Below are positions 230-56,646 of a stretch of 64,000 nucleotides of DNA, one piece after another; position 1 is the stretch's first letter, and every line of letters begins with the position of its first letter. The stretch lies in NCBI GenBank assembly GCA_016235555.1, contig JACRKC010000115.1, positions 1 through 64,000 of the forward strand. Reading direction: 5' to 3'. Position numbers and translations under genes: made by a program. The notes beneath the pieces are model-generated. The model was not told the origin of the DNA. It searched no databases and worked only from the letters and a program-made list of their open reading frames with translations. Source of the DNA: Verrucomicrobiota bacterium. GTDB lineage: Bacteria; Verrucomicrobiota; Verrucomicrobiia; Opitutales; Opitutaceae.

Positions 230-2545
230 TCAATCCGCCTTGGCGTCTCCGATTTCTTCTTCGCGCGCCCTCAGCCACGCTTTGAAGTCCGCCAGGTGCG
301 CCGGCGCACCGAGGGCCAGCACTTCGTCACCGCTGTGCAACCGCTCCTCGGCGCTGGGATTCAGGATGCGGATGCCCCCTCGCCGCACGCCAGCGATCTG
401 CACGCCATATTCCCGCGCCGGCGAGAGCTGTCCCAGCGTGCGCCCTGCCGCCCGGCTCCACGCCGGCACCGCCAGCGCCTCCATCCGCACCTCCTCGAAC
501 AACGAATCCGCGATCGGCGCGCCCGACACCGCACCGAGAAACTCCCTGCCCGCCCTCACCTGCTCGACCGTCCCCAACAGCAGCACCTTGTCGCGCGGAT
601 AAAGCACCGCCGTCGGTGGCGGCAGCGGGATCATGAACCCCTGCCGTTCGATCCCCACGACCGAACAGCCGAAACGCGAGCGCAGCGCCAGCTCCGCGAT
701 CGACTTGCCCTGGCAGTCGGCGAGGTCCGGCAGCGTGCAATCCACCATGTGCAGGTGCCACTCGCCATGCGGCCGCAGCCAGGGCGCCGTCGTCGCCGTC
801 ATCTTGTTGTCGCCCGTCTCGATCACGCTCAGCAGCTCCACCTCGAGTTCGCTGTGCCAGTAAATCAGCTGCCGGCGCAGCATCACGAGCGCCACCACCG
901 CCACGAGCCCGCTCAACAGCAACAGCCACCGCGCCGTGCTCTCCACCGGCACGATCGACGCCAGCCAGACGAAAATCCCGCCGCCCGCCACGATCTTGAG
1001 GCTCGCCTCCACGATCGGGCGGAGTTTTTCCGCATCGGGGTGATGCTGCGTCGACACCTCGGCCAGCAGCATCGACATCGCCGATAGGTTGCGCCAGATC
1101 GCCACCAGCGGCGCGAGCGTTGCGAGCACGAGCGCGGTCCAGAAAATCACCTCGAGCCCGTGCGGAAACAACCAGTCGCGCCCCACCCCGCGCTCCGCCA
1201 GCGCGAACAACTGCTCCGATGACACCACCAGCCCCGTCACGAACAGCAGGCCCACGCCGAGCTGCGCGACCCGCTTGCGGGTGAGTTGCCACAGCCGGCT
1301 CTGCTTCGAGCGCGCGGCCAGCCGCTCCAGCCAGCCGTGGTAGGCGTTCACGAAATCCAGCAGCCACCTCGGCGGACGCGCCAGCGCTGCCTCCGCGATC
1401 TTCTCCGAGCGCCGCGTGAGGAGGGGCGCGCCCAGCGTCGTCAACAACGAGACGCCGACCGCCAGCGGGTAGAAATTCGCCGGCACCACCGCCTTCGCCA
1501 CGCCGAACTGCGCGATGATGAACGAAAACTCCCCGATCGGCGTCGCCGTCAGGCCCGTGCGCATCGCATCCTTCAGCGGCGTGCCGATCAGCGCGAGCCC
1601 CGTCGTCACCGCCACCGGCCGCGCCACCAGCGTGAACGCCGCGACGCCCACGATCAGCCCCGCCGATTTCCACAGGTCGCCCACGTTGATCTGCATGCCG
1701 ATCGCCACGAAGAACACCGCGCTGAACACATCGCGCATCCCCTCGAACGTCCGCTCCACCTGATGCCGGTGCGGCGTCTCCGCCACGATCGTGCCGAGCA
1801 GAAACGCCCCCAGCGCCAGCGAATACCCCGCCCCCTGCGCCACCACCGCGAGCCCGAAGAGCAGCGCCGCGATCCCGATCGTTTGCAGCTCTTCGTCGGC
1901 CGCCACGCTCAACCGCTTCAACAGCCACGGCACGAACAGCAGCCCCACGATGCCCGCGACGACCACGAACGCCCCCAGCAGCAGCACCGTCTGCAGGAGA
2001 TGCGCCCCCTCGCCCGTCCCGATCTGCACCAGCGAGGTGAGCAGCGTCAGCATCACCACCGCGACCACATCCTCGAGCACCGCCACCCCCATCACCAGTT
2101 GCCCCGGCCGCTCGTGGTTGAGGCCCGTCTCGTGCAGAATTTTCGAAATGATCGCGGACGACGACACCATGAGCATGCCCGCGAGAAACAGACTCTCCGT
2201 GCTCCCCCACCCGAGCGCCGCGCCGAACATCCGCGTGAGATAATACATCGTCACCGCGCCGCCAAACGTGGCCAGCATCAATCCGAGCCCGAGCCGCCGC
2301 ATCTTCCGCACGCTCAGTTGCAGCCCGATCGAGAACATCAGAAACACCAGCCCGATCTGCGCCAGCGTCTCGATGCTCCCTGCGTCCTTCACAAGCGTGA
2401 ACGGCGGCGACGCCGGCCCGGCGATGATGCCCGCGACGAGAAAGCCGACGACGACCGACAACCCGATGCGCTGGCACAACCACCCCACCACGCCCGCAAC
2501 GACGAGCACGACGGCCAGATCCTGGATGAAATGAAGGGAGTGCAT
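230..2545 (-). CDS. CPA2-family cation:proton antiporter with C-terminal TrkA_C domains
   Basis: This is a 771-residue inner-membrane protein of the KefB/CPA2 type, predicted to exchange K+ or Na+ for H+. Residues about 5-380 form the Na+/H+ exchanger domain, with many hydrophobic helices and the GLxxEL-like and EDVVAV segments expected in the family. A second hydrophobic block at about 430-560 adds roughly five helices that standard KefB proteins lack. Two soluble TrkA_C (RCK-C) ligand-binding domains follow at about 595-675 and 695-760, and I see no TrkA_N nucleotide-binding domain between them. The ATG start gives a hydrophobic N-terminus directly. It is transcribed alone, away from the next gene. 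The transported ion is not decidable from sequence. Confidence 0.88.
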   Translation of the reverse strand: MHSLHFIQDLAVVLVVAGVVGWLCQRIGLSVVVGFLVAGIIAGPASPPFTLVKDAGSIETLAQIGLVFLMFSIGLQLSVRKMRRLGLGLMLATFGGAVTMYYLTRMFGAALGWGSTESLFLAGMLMVSSSAIISKILHETGLNHERPGQLVMGVAVLEDVVAVVMLTLLTSLVQIGTGEGAHLLQTVLLLGAFVVVAGIVGLLFVPWLLKRLSVAADEELQTIGIAALLFGLAVVAQGAGYSLALGAFLLGTIVAETPHRHQVERTFEGMRDVFSAVFFVAIGMQINVGDLWKSAGLIVGVAAFTLVARPVAVTTGLALIGTPLKDAMRTGLTATPIGEFSFIIAQFGVAKAVVPANFYPLAVGVSLLTTLGAPLLTRRSEKIAEAALARPPRWLLDFVNAYHGWLERLAARSKQSRLWQLTRKRVAQLGVGLLFVTGLVVSSEQLFALAERGVGRDWLFPHGLEVIFWTALVLATLAPLVAIWRNLSAMSMLLAEVSTQHHPDAEKLRPIVEASLKIVAGGGIFVWLASIVPVESTARWLLLLSGLVAVVALVMLRRQLIYWHSELEVELLSVIETGDNKMTATTAPWLRPHGEWHLHMVDCTLPDLADCQGKSIAELALRSRFGCSVVGIERQGFMIPLPPPTAVLYPRDKVLLLGTVEQVRAGREFLGAVSGAPIADSLFEEVRMEALAVPAWSRAAGRTLGQLSPAREYGVQIAGVRRGGIRILNPSAEERLHSGDEVLALGAPAHLADFKAWLRAREEEIGDAKAD

Positions 2546-2933
2546 CGCGTCGCGCGCCTCCGAAAACGCGGCGAAGCGCGCGATGCGTCAAGCGCGACCA
2601 CGCCTCCAGCCACGGCCGCGTTAGGCGCGCGGGCCAATGCGTCGGCTGAAGTGCCGCAGTCGCATCGCCTCGATCATCCGTTCGGAGATTCCTTTGCGAT
2701 CATCGGCAGCAGGGGCGACGCGCTCACGGTGTCGACACATCCGCGGCCTACCCCCGGCGCAAACTATCTGTAAGTCCGCGCGCCGGGCCAACTCGCCGCT
2801 TGTCTCGAACTTCGCGCCTTCCCAAGTTTGCCGAAACGCAACCCCTCTCGGCTGTCGAATGATTACTGTTGGGCGGAGTTCTCGGCTGATTAACAAATTG
2901 CGCGATTATCGGAGTTGATATTGCACCGCCGCT
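2546..2933. other. 388-bp intergenic gap, no gene seen
   Basis: This gap separates the divergently oriented antiporter and a small plus-strand gene. Open frames here on both strands have arginine- and serine-rich translations of the kind produced by shadow frames, and none has a convincing composition. The promoters of both flanking genes should lie here. I see no clear palindrome. Confidence 0.5.
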
Positions 2934-3215
2934 ATGAGTGAGACCCCTCCACGTATGAGAAATCCAAGAAGCAATTCGGGCCGGTGGCTGAATCATGAAT
3001 GGAAAGTAGGTGCGGCACATCCGCTCTATCGGAAGGATGGCACGTTCTACATGATGCTGGAATCCTTCCCTGGTGCCTTGTTCGACGAGCGCGGTTACGT
3101 CGTATTCAAGACCAAAGCCGAGTTGCAGGCGTGCGAGCACGTCAGACTTTATCCCGGCAGAATCACGGTCACAGGAGGCATCAGCACGATTCCCGGCTAC
3201 GTTCAAGTGCGGTGA
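2934..3215 (+). CDS. small conserved-looking hypothetical protein
   Basis: This encodes a 93-residue soluble protein of unknown function. It has believable protein composition, with the segments LYRKDGTFYMMLESFPGALF and DERGYVVFKT and a C-terminal GGISTIPGYV. I recall the pattern of a YxxDG strand, FPGxLFD, GYVxFxT and a terminal IPGYV from small uncharacterised bacterial proteins that often sit near defence or HNH genes, but I cannot name a family. It starts with ATG, and an alternative ATG lies seven codons in. The local base composition is lower in GC than the neighbouring genes, which may point to acquisition. No operon partner is visible. Confidence 0.6.
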   Translation: MSETPPRMRNPRSNSGRWLNHEWKVGAAHPLYRKDGTFYMMLESFPGALFDERGYVVFKTKAELQACEHVRLYPGRITVTGGISTIPGYVQVR

Positions 3216-3445
3216 AAAAAAAGCCTAAATTCTGAATAGGTAACGGCGGCTCCGGTCAGCAGCAGAGCGGAACCGGGTCGGCCGGCGTGATACCCGAAAC
3301 GGTGCGGACGTGAAGGACGAGTTCGCTTGGCTTCATGCGTCGCCCGCCACAGTGCACGCGGGATTTCCCTCGTTGACACCCCCTGCGCCCGCCGATTCGT
3401 TTCCGTCGGCGGAGACGCCTCCCGCCAACACCCGCTAACGAAATC

Positions 3446-4459
3446 ATGGCCAACTTCCTCGGCTACTTTTCCAACGACATCGGCATCGATCTCGGCACGG
3501 CCAACACGCTCGTTTACGTCAAGGACAAGGGCATCGTCCTCCGCGAACCGTCCGTCGTCGCGCTCGATACCTCCACCCGCAAGGTCCGCGCCGTCGGGGA
3601 AGATGCCAAGAAGATGCTCGGCCGCACCCCCGGCAACATCACCGCCATCCGCCCGATGAAGGACGGGGTGATCGCCGACTTCGATGTCACCGAGGCGATG
3701 CTCCGCTATTTCATCCGCAAGGTCTCCAACACCGCCTTCCGCGCCCCGCCCCGCGTCGTCATCGCCATCCCCTCGGGCATCACCGAGGTCGAGAAACGCG
3801 CCGTGAAGGAATCCGCCATGCACGCCGGCGCCCGCGACGTCATCACGATCCCCGAACCCATGGCCGCCGCCATCGGCGTCGGCCTGCCGATCGACGAACC
3901 CGCGGCCAACATGATCGTCGACATCGGCGGCGGCACCACGGAGATCGCGATCATCTCGCTCAACGGCATCGTGTTTTCCAAGTCGATCCGCGTGGCCGGC
4001 GACGAGCTCGACCTCGCGATCATCAACTACATGAAGCGCGCCTACAATCTCCTCATCGGTGAGCGCACCGCGGAAGAGATCAAGATGCGCGTCGGCTCCG
4101 CCTATCCGCTCGACGAGGAGCTCACGATGGAGGTCAAGGGCCGCGACTCCGTGGCCGGCCTGCCGAAAACCATCCACGTCACCTCGCAGGAAATCCGCGA
4201 GGCCCTCGCCGACACCATCGCCTCGATCGTCGACGCCGTGCGCGTGACGCTCGAACGCTGCCCGCCCGAACTCTCCGCCGACCTCGTCGACCGCGGCTTC
4301 GTGATGGCCGGCGGCGGCGCGCTCATCCGCGGCATCGACAAGCTCCTCTCCGAGAAAACCGGCCTGCCCGTCGTCGTGAGCGACGACCCGCTCTCCGCCG
4401 TCGCCAACGGCACCGGCGCCGTCCTCAACGACCTCTCGTGGTTGATGCAGAACGTCTGA
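3446..4459 (+). CDS. mreB: rod shape-determining protein MreB
   Basis: This is bacterial actin, 337 residues, the usual MreB length. It polymerises at the inner face of the cytoplasmic membrane and guides the elongation machinery. The N-terminal [20 protein letters not shown] is the phosphate-1 loop. The phosphate-2 motif [15 protein letters not shown] is at about residue 155-170, and an adenosine-site [10 protein letters not shown] is near 285. It is the first gene of an mre cluster followed by a small ORF, mreC, mreD and the transpeptidase PBP2, the standard elongasome order. The ATG at 3446 fits the family N-terminus exactly. Confidence 0.98.
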
Positions 4460-28003: not shown

Positions 28004-29500
28004 TCACCCGGTTGCGAGCAGGCGGCGGAGGGTCTCGTCGACGAGCTTGGGGTTGGCCTTGCCCTTCGCGGCTTTCATCACCGGCCCCTTGAAGGCGTTG
28101 ATCGCGCTGTCCTTGCCGGCTTTGAACTCGGCGAGGGCTTTCGCGTTGGCGGCGATGGAATCGCGGCACCATTGCTCGAGCTCGTTGCTGTCGGTGGGCG
28201 CCGCTTTGAGGCCTTTGCGATCGGCGATGACTTCGGGCGTTTCGCCGGTGGCAAACATCTCGACGAAAATTTCCTTGGCGGCATTGGTCAGCACGGCGCC
28301 GGAGTCGACGAGCTTGACGAGCGCGGCGATGTGCGCCGGGCGGATTCTGCACGTCTGTAGGTCGGGCTTTACGCCCGACACGGCATCGGACGATGTCGGG
28401 GATAAACCCCGACCTACGTTGCCCAATTCGCGGAGGAGATCATTCACGATCCAGTTGCCGGCGGCCTGGGGCTTTCCGCTGAGCTTCGCCGCTTCCTCGA
28501 AATAATCGGCGAGCGCGCGATCCCAGACGAGCACGGACGTGAGCGTGTAGGGCAACTGGTAGTCGGCGATGAAGCGGCGCTGCTTGTCGAACGGCAGCTC
28601 GGGACATTCGGCGGCGAGGCGTTGCTTCCACGCGTCGTCGACCTTCACCGGCATGAGATCCGGATCAGGGAAGTAGCGGTAGTCGTGCGCCATTTCCTTC
28701 GAGCGGAGGGACTGCGACGTGCCGGTCATGCCATCGTAGTCGCGCGTCTCCTGCACGATGATGCCGCCGCGTTCGAGCACGGCGATCTGGCGCTTGATCT
28801 CGTGGGCGATGCCGTCGCGCACGAAGGAGATCGAGTTGAGGTTCTTCAGCTCCACTTTCACGCCGAGCTTGGTTTCGCCGACGGGGCGGATGGAGATGTT
28901 AGCGTCGCAACGGAGCTGGCCCTTCTCCATGTCGCAGTCGGAGATGCCGCCGTAGATCATCGTGGCACGGAGCGAAGTGAGGTAGGCGTAGGCCTCGTCG
29001 GCCGTGTGCATCGCAGGATCGGACACGATCTCCATCAGCGGCGTGCCGGCGCGGTTGTAGTCGACGAGGGAGTCGCTCGTGCCGTGGTTGAGTTTGCCGA
29101 CGTCCTCCTCGAGATGGATGCGCGTGAGCGGGATTTTCTTATGTTCACCCATCACGTTGCGCGCGGAGCCGGGCAGCTCGATCTCGACGGCGCCGCCGAG
29201 GCAGATCGGCTGGTCGTATTGCGAGATCTGGTAGTTCTTCGGCGAGTCGGGGTAGAAATAGTTTTTCCGGTCCCATTTGCAGACGGGCGCGATGTCGCAG
29301 CCGAGGAGGAGGCCGGCCTTGATGATGGCGTCGAGCGCGGCCTTGTTCATCACCGGCAGCGTGCCGGGCAGCGCGAGCACCACGGGATCGGTGAGCGTGT
29401 TGGGCTCGTGCCCGTAGCCGGCGGCGACGCGCGTGAAAATCTTCGAGCGGGTTTTCACCTGCACGTGGACTTCGAGACCGATGACGGCTTCGTAATTCAT
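28004..29500 (-). CDS. gatB: aspartyl/glutamyl-tRNA amidotransferase subunit B, with in-frame repeat
   Basis: This is GatB, 498 residues, the tRNA-binding kinase subunit of the GatCAB complex that converts Glu-tRNA-Gln or Asp-tRNA-Asn to the amide. The N-terminal MNYEAVIGLEVHVQV, the CKWDRKNYFYPDSPKNYQIS zinc/ATP region, and GTPLMEIVSDP are all conserved. Residues about 361-381 (GRGLSPTSSDAVSGVKPDLQ) are foreign. They translate a palindromic repeat inserted in frame between the helical domain and the YqeY-like tail. The frame and the rest of the tail are intact. It is the last gene of a pheS, pheT, gatC, gatA, gatB run. Confidence 0.97.
   Translation of the reverse strand: MNYEAVIGLEVHVQVKTRSKIFTRVAAGYGHEPNTLTDPVVLALPGTLPVMNKAALDAIIKAGLLLGCDIAPVCKWDRKNYFYPDSPKNYQISQYDQPICLGGAVEIELPGSARNVMGEHKKIPLTRIHLEEDVGKLNHGTSDSLVDYNRAGTPLMEIVSDPAMHTADEAYAYLTSLRATMIYGGISDCDMEKGQLRCDANISIRPVGETKLGVKVELKNLNSISFVRDGIAHEIKRQIAVLERGGIIVQETRDYDGMTGTSQSLRSKEMAHDYRYFPDPDLMPVKVDDAWKQRLAAECPELPFDKQRRFIADYQLPYTLTSVLVWDRALADYFEEAAKLSGKPQAAGNWIVNDLLRELGNVGRGLSPTSSDAVSGVKPDLQTCRIRPAHIAALVKLVDSGAVLTNAAKEIFVEMFATGETPEVIADRKGLKAAPTDSNELEQWCRDSIAANAKALAEFKAGKDSAINAFKGPVMKAAKGKANPKLVDETLRRLLATG
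28358..28416. repeat. palindromic repeat inserted in gatB
   Basis: This is a 59-bp palindrome: GTAGGTCGGGCTTTACGCCC on the left and GGGGATAAACCCCGACCTAC as the inverted right arm. Relatives lie at 47102-47167 and 56597-56646 between genes. The coding frame runs through it without a stop. Confidence 0.9.
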
Positions 29501-47101: not shown

Positions 47102-47167
47102 GTAGGTCGGGCTTTACGCCCGACACTCGCCCGCTTGGAGCCGATGTCGGGGATGACCCCGGCCTAC
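47102..47167. repeat. GTAGGTCGGG palindrome, copy 2
   Basis: The left arm GTAGGTCGGGCTTTACGCCC is identical to that of the copy inside gatB, and the right arm (GGGGATGACCCCGGCCTAC) differs slightly. The centre is longer than in gatB. Confidence 0.85.
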
Positions 47168-56596: not shown

Positions 56597-56646
56597 GTAA
56601 GACCGGGGGGCCAGCCCCGGCTCGTCGGGCGTGAAGCCCGACCTAC
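56597..56646. repeat. GTAGGTCGGG palindrome, copy 3
   Basis: The minus strand reads GTAGGTCGGGCTTCACGCCC, like the copies in gatB and at 47102. The opposite arm is shorter and more diverged. It lies in the ssb-rplI gap. Confidence 0.75.

Follow-up and report, generated by a model that had tools for sequence, protein, structure and literature searches.

Introduction

REPINs have been described as inverted doublets of REP sequences that form one long hairpin and occur in high copy number, the associated RAYT gene being flanked by REPs (PLoS Genet 2011; PMC3116915). The doublet hairpin, the REP-flanked RAYT, and the high copy number are shared with the family treated here; the REPs of that study are, however, predominantly extragenic, and insertion into coding sequence is absent from the part of its text considered (PMC3116915). 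Closer to the present case are GTAG REPs and their inverted dimers reported inside open reading frames (ORFs), in the highest number in Opitutus terrae, which is placed in the Verrucomicrobia (BMC Genomics 2013; PMC3733652). According to the main text of that report, more than half of the in-ORF inserts (GTAG and CGTC types taken together) are dimers or groups that encode 20–30 residues, uvrA and RNA helicase genes are among the REP targets, the TAG of a REP often serves as the stop of a neighbouring ORF, and different REPs are found at about the same recB site in two Xanthomonas species (PMC3733652). The same text treats CGTC repeats found within genes of R. conorii as identical to RPE-4 and RPE-6; Rickettsia palindromic elements (RPE) are likewise palindromic repeats lying in frame in genes likely to encode functional proteins (cited in PMC3733652), and, going by their description, they differ in tag and sequence from the GTAG element considered here.

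The element in question lies within gatB in a 64-kb stretch of DNA, referred to here, at its full length, as the window. The family to which it belongs is similar to the GTAG REPs of 2013 in its GTAG tags, its inverted dimers in ORFs, and its uvrA and helicase targets, as far as the main text of that report describes them; neither gatB nor the amidotransferase is named in that main text, as distinct from its supplementary gene list (PMC3733652). Among the entries listed by a literature search that covered few subscription papers, none reports a palindrome in gatB or repeated use of its loop. The sequence-only reading of the window had presented the palindrome as one that can spread into coding DNA and create protein sequence, a statement that holds but describes a phenomenon already known, as the main text of the 2013 report attests (PMC3733652). 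In-frame GTAG REPs (2013) and a precedent for recurrence at one site (recB) being on record, what is added here is the insertion in gatB, together with a GatB loop that has been used repeatedly. With this locus, the conversion of a mobile DNA hairpin into protein becomes something that can be counted, and a single loop of a conserved enzyme can be compared across species in insert-free, freshly inserted, and perhaps anciently inserted states.

A REPIN in Frame Within gatB

The gatB gene (28004–29500, minus strand; 498 aa) was assigned through TIGR00133 (490.8 bits; cut-off 314.8) and also matches solved GatB chains; its product is the GatB subunit of the Asp-tRNA(Asn)/Glu-tRNA(Gln) amidotransferase, and the genome holds one gatB match only. 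Within the gene, and in frame with it, lies a REPIN built of two inverted GTAG REPs that spans 61 bp (28357–28417) rather than the 59 bp initially claimed. Its C-type arm, GTAGGTCGGGCTTTACGCCCGAC (28357–28379, plus strand), shows 0 mismatches to the arm pattern, its G-type arm, GTAGGTCGGGGTTTATCCCCGAC (28395–28417, minus strand), shows 2 mismatches relative to the C-type pattern, and the 15-bp spacer between them (28380–28394) recurs in 0 of the 79 other listed elements. The layout is therefore GTAGGTCGGGCTTTACGCCCGAC, spacer, GTCGGGGATAAACCCCGACCTAC, with GTAG...CTAC at the ends, and the reading on the gatB strand is VGRGLSPTSSDAVSGVKPDLQ. The single strand has a folding energy of -22.5 kcal/mol (z -6.5), a value reached by none of 200 shuffles; an inverted pair of REPs forming one hairpin, with GTAG at each hairpin foot, is what characterises a REPIN. 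A search at this element for a terminator of the simple terminator-like type found none.

Four of the six reading frames of the gatB copy, two of three on each strand, are free of stops, and the third frame on each strand contains the TAG of GTAG; this openness helps to explain how a repeat of this sort can be accommodated in coding sequence. The 498-codon ORF crosses the element without a stop. The REPIN encodes ~20 residues, as was proposed from the sequence, but the net gain is smaller, GatB being longer by just 15 residues than in the nearest relatives. In alignments read by eye, some 16 bp (five codons) of native loop sequence are missing, and the frame is kept for this reason even though the 61-bp length is not divisible by three.

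Across the window, the arm pattern has four matches against 0.01 expected from shuffles: both gatB arms, 47102–47124 (plus strand), and 56624–56646 (minus strand). Both further REPs of the family are non-coding by codon usage, the former with a partner arm near 47146–47164 that carries one change. Codon usage also revealed no in-frame coding and no clear coding signal on either side of the corresponding copies (47102–47167 and 56597–56646), in agreement with their initial description as intergenic.

The GatB Protein and Its Constraint

The REPIN had been placed between the helical domain and a YqeY-like tail; it is situated, instead, inside the Pfam GatB_Yqey domain (residues 332–495), between predicted helices 344–361 and 388–400 of an AlphaFold model. 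In that model, for which the input was shallow (41 alignment rows; best model 77.7, worst 65.2), residues 362–387 have no secondary structure, helices flank both sides, and pLDDT falls below 50 at residues 365–378; as pLDDT is also below 50 in five more segments of GatB, the low confidence at the REPIN loop is not special. Outside the loop, comparison with the relative L178 yielded dN 0.048 and dS 0.692, similar to the values for L178 and L180, two relatives free of the insert (dN 0.060, dS 0.729). That dN is far below dS, and much as in the insert-free pair, shows that GatB is still under constraint. Essentiality of gatB had been expected if GlnRS or AsnRS were missing, an argument that does not apply here: genes for both are in the genome and score above curated cut-offs, at 652.6 and 583.2 bits, respectively.

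The REP Family and Its Putative RAYT Genes

The genome (8,028,152 bases, or 8.03 Mb, in 140 contigs; 98.6% complete) contains 316 arm matches at three or fewer mismatches against one for the reversed control, a count in which one hairpin may match on both strands, and 80 mixed-type inverted doublets together with 13 C-C doublets. The arms, the fold, this copy number, and the stop-free ORF bear out the proposal that a palindrome of a mobile family is present, in frame, in gatB. Among 57 genomes searched, the arm was matched at two or fewer mismatches in nine, the own genome included, and at least 40 matches were recorded solely in the own genome, G015, G020, and G024. At the same threshold, the arm had no match in G003, which we take to be the genome of Opitutus terrae.

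Ten loci with Pfam Y1_Tnp matches were located in the genome, three of them (L034, L037, and L038) truncated by contig ends. Two of the ten, L035 and L040, carry arms of the gatB REPIN family on both sides within 700 bp. Their scores with NF047646 (REP-associated tyrosine transposase) are 81.2 and 79.1 bits, respectively, for a curated cut-off of 80, so that L040 falls just below it. The L035 protein matches the solved TnpArep structure 4er8 (E 4e-6), and its translation holds, by eye and unscored, MPDHFHLL and FLYIFLNPY, candidates for the HUH-type motif and the catalytic tyrosine region. Other GTAG hairpins are found near L033, L037, and L038, and in the stretches examined around the five remaining loci no GTAG hairpin with a stem of at least 7 was detected; different REP families may each have their own RAYT.

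REPINs in Coding Sequence Across the Genome

Searching for doublets with two patterns in 100 stretches around REP places, which cover all 80 mixed doublets and all 13 C-C doublets, gave 101 distinct REPINs, and hence at least 101 genome-wide; 83 of them have exact GTAG/CTAC ends. When in-frame copies were counted, as the sequence-only reading had suggested, nine of the 101 were seen to run in frame through coding sequence, with a strong coding signal to either side. The family thus lies mostly outside genes (92/101, by codon usage), but it is not exclusively intergenic apart from gatB. The nine targets, named from the best profile or structure matches of fragments, are gatB, uvrA, purL, metH, hrpA, xanthine dehydrogenase (two REPINs within a single ORF), a pump of the CusA/CzcA type, and an ABC transporter closest to MsbA. 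The coding test relied on codon usage, and Pfam matches support eight of the nine gene copies (the UvrA fragment had none); NCBIfam matches were obtained for all eight non-gatB fragments, each below the curated whole-protein cut-offs. In a first survey of 85 REPINs, the lowest flank score of an in-gene copy was 20.6 and that of the next element 0.

The nine gene copies are read as VGR... (two) or RSG... (seven) and never in the TAG-bearing frame; openness in four frames is no general property, and a rule to that effect was discarded, being true of only 41 of the 101 REPINs and two of the nine in genes. Three frames are open in 15 REPINs, two in 44, and one in a single REPIN; for the gene copies, the corresponding numbers are two, five, and none. 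An enrichment of lengths divisible by three in gene copies was likewise rejected (5/9 vs 45/101 overall, no clear excess). For 17 of the 92 other REPINs, one strand shows coding signal to either side of the element, and in all 17 the upstream ORF stops before the element or, in eight cases, at the element's own TAG; downstream starts are unclear in two of these (L144 and L167). Judged on codon usage rather than homology, there is no clear case of a gene broken by a REPIN, a pattern that fits selection removing out-of-frame insertions. A target-site motif was also considered and set aside, as the apparent conservation of the flanks came mostly from copies within larger repeats; among the 58 REPINs whose surroundings recur less than three times, the sole flank signal is a lack of outward T (5/116).

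Several of the target ORFs contain further repeats. The hrpA-like ORF of L106 (G000:C51:1-4030; ~1477–3817) holds a 69-bp REPIN and three in-frame repeats from two other GTAG REP families, as well as one more repeat-like segment read as GRLGEASLPQP. Short in-frame PSTLNSQ-like and SEIENQK-like repeats, apparently tandem heptamer DNA by eye, share ORFs with the REPINs of L113 (metH), L132 (purL), and L141 (uvrA). The uvrA ORF of L141 (G000:C108:103485-107530), open at both ends of the stretch, seems by eye to comprise at least two UvrA units within a single frame; a REP belonging to a different family lies at 909–933.

The Same GatB Loop in Relatives

A GatB match was obtained in 239 of 252 family genomes. 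The insert is absent from an alignment of 29 other GatB proteins of the family, proposed at the outset as a check, one of which (L070) has a different long insert at the same place; nor was the same segment found conserved in distant GatB proteins. The loop was then compared in 81 GatB sequences, comprising that of the window and the 80 best of 571 matches, the named relatives being mostly Opitutaceae or Opitutae records. Inserts of at least eight residues occur at the loop in 11 of the 81, a proportion that is not a family-wide rate, and are lacking in 70; elsewhere in the protein, a single insert of this size was seen (L255, residue 325). Beyond the 81, enlarged loops were also noted in L070 and L271.

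Two of the loops in relatives can be assigned to REP families. That of L179 harbours a degraded REPIN, again of the GTAG family of the window but at a different junction (arms with one and two mismatches), the peptide of which, GAGRGLSPTDRTMSGMSPEL, resembles the insert of the window GatB. In G104, taken as the genome of L179, the GTAG arm has 17 matches, among them both arms of this gatB copy; four of the 17 are exact, and some represent a single hairpin counted on each strand or belong to a related type. The loop of L183 contains an inverted pair of GACGCGGCGCCCTCGCCGCG, a GACG family with 79 matches in G108, taken as the L183 genome, against three for the control. This pattern was matched in 10 of 10 genomes searched, although in G133, G138, and G140 (taken, from match lengths, as the genomes of L201, L203, and L209) its 7, 4, and 9 matches are hardly above the control counts of 1, 1, and 3. 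Exact inverted repeats of at least 8 bp are present at the loop in the window, L183, L189, and L201, and none of this kind was found in L179, L203, L209, L195, L205, L235, or L255; in the last four, no palindrome or REP was recognised. By eye and unscored, the inserts of L201, L203, and L209 resemble a degraded version of the L183 pair, and that of L189 resembles a third hairpin family.

On a tree built without the loop columns, the insert trait undergoes seven changes, at least six of them forced by starred branches, with two changes each for the assigned GTAG and GACG types; these counts do not separate gain from loss. L188, the sister of L183 (99/92), is without the insert. The pair was considered as a clean empty site and rejected, since the 78-bp difference is accompanied by base changes on both sides that leave the junction imprecise. 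The fresh copy of L183, absent from L188, and the seemingly eroded copies in the three species represented by L201, L203, and L209 may be two stages of one process. Judged from these alignments and the tree, the same GatB loop appears to have been enlarged repeatedly, through two unrelated REP families in some relatives and, elsewhere, through sequence in which no palindrome was detected.

Origin of the Insertion

Very probably, a REPIN landed in a length-tolerant loop of gatB, where it replaced ~16 bp, survived by virtue of its frame and stop-free reading, and is now translated as an unstructured linker, its mobilisation being most likely the work, in trans, of RAYTs of the own genome. A RAYT would have moved a copy of the REPIN into the loop, and a short piece of the target (~16 bp) was presumably lost at insertion and not later; this loss could nevertheless represent later drift, the nearest GatB found, at 91% identity, offering no closer empty site. 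Selection would then have retained only the frame-preserving outcome, and the REPIN would owe its survival to a net change that left the frame intact and to the lack of stops in two of the three frames on each strand of this copy. The resulting peptide would serve as an unstructured linker with no function of its own. The anatomy of the element, its copy number, the RAYT-type genes flanked by the same repeats, the maintained frame, the absence from relatives, and the constraint on GatB are the observations on which this account is built, and with the insert lacking in the nearest relatives, the original suggestion is upheld that gatB took up, in frame, a member of a mobile palindrome family that contributes to the protein sequence.

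That GatB natively contains this segment as a conserved feature is almost out of the question: the similar peptide GAGRGLSPTDRTMSGMSPEL in the same loop of L179 might suggest as much, but the L179 copy is itself a REPIN with another junction, the GTAG type needs two changes on the tree, and 70 of the 81 rows lack a loop insert of at least eight residues. It is also highly improbable that the repeat was misjoined into gatB during assembly. Despite the 140 contigs and the abundance of repeats, which would favour such an error, both flanks are gatB in frame on a single 146-kb contig, none of the other 79 listed elements shares the spacer, eight more in-frame insertions take the same form, and ordinary sequencing reads are longer than the 61 bp to be bridged. 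One reading of the enlarged loops, put forward tentatively and with rather less than even confidence, is that the loop is a recurrent capture site at which unrelated families of mobile hairpins arrive in frame independently of each other, persist, and decay into ordinary protein sequence; if so, REPINs would repeatedly supply new linker sequence to a conserved translation enzyme. That the loop is a true target hot spot, attracting REPINs by its sequence or by its position on the replicating strand, is unlikely. The concentration of inserts at the loop (11/81, one elsewhere in the protein), the seven tree changes with at least six forced, and the repetition of the GTAG family in the own genome and G104 and of the GACG family in G108 all speak for a hot spot; tolerance is, however, a better explanation for the four of 11 inserts (L195, L205, L235, and L255) that show neither an inverted repeat of at least 8 bp nor a recognised REP, the L183-type hairpin is near control in G133, G138, and G140, no target motif emerges beyond the lack of outward T, and the same REPINs occupy eight other gene places.

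Additional Repeats

A number of other repeats came to light alongside the gatB family. At L173 (G000:C57:7498-11520; 2001–2023), an arm of this family stands in frame in coding-like sequence with no doublet listed. In 25 REPINs (e.g., L119, L121, and L122), none of them in genes, the element occupies the centre of a longer repeat, the ends of which, ACCAACGGCTGTTGA...TTCAGCAGCCGTTGGT, are seemingly inverted (by eye), and groups of seven and four REPINs (e.g., L078, L093, L079, and L086) seem, again by eye, to be nested in the loop of another GTAG-type hairpin, GTAGCCG...CGGCTAC. The REPs near the Y1_Tnp loci L037 (G000:C79) and L038 (G000:C139) belong to two other GTAG families, F2 and F3; F2 also lies in frame in coding sequence, as does a near relative of F3. 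Lastly, in genome G123 the L183-type hairpin has 95 matches at two or fewer mismatches, against two for the control; GACGCGACGCCCTCGTCGCG accounts for many of these, inverted pairs are formed by some, and the repeats are likely a further REP family.
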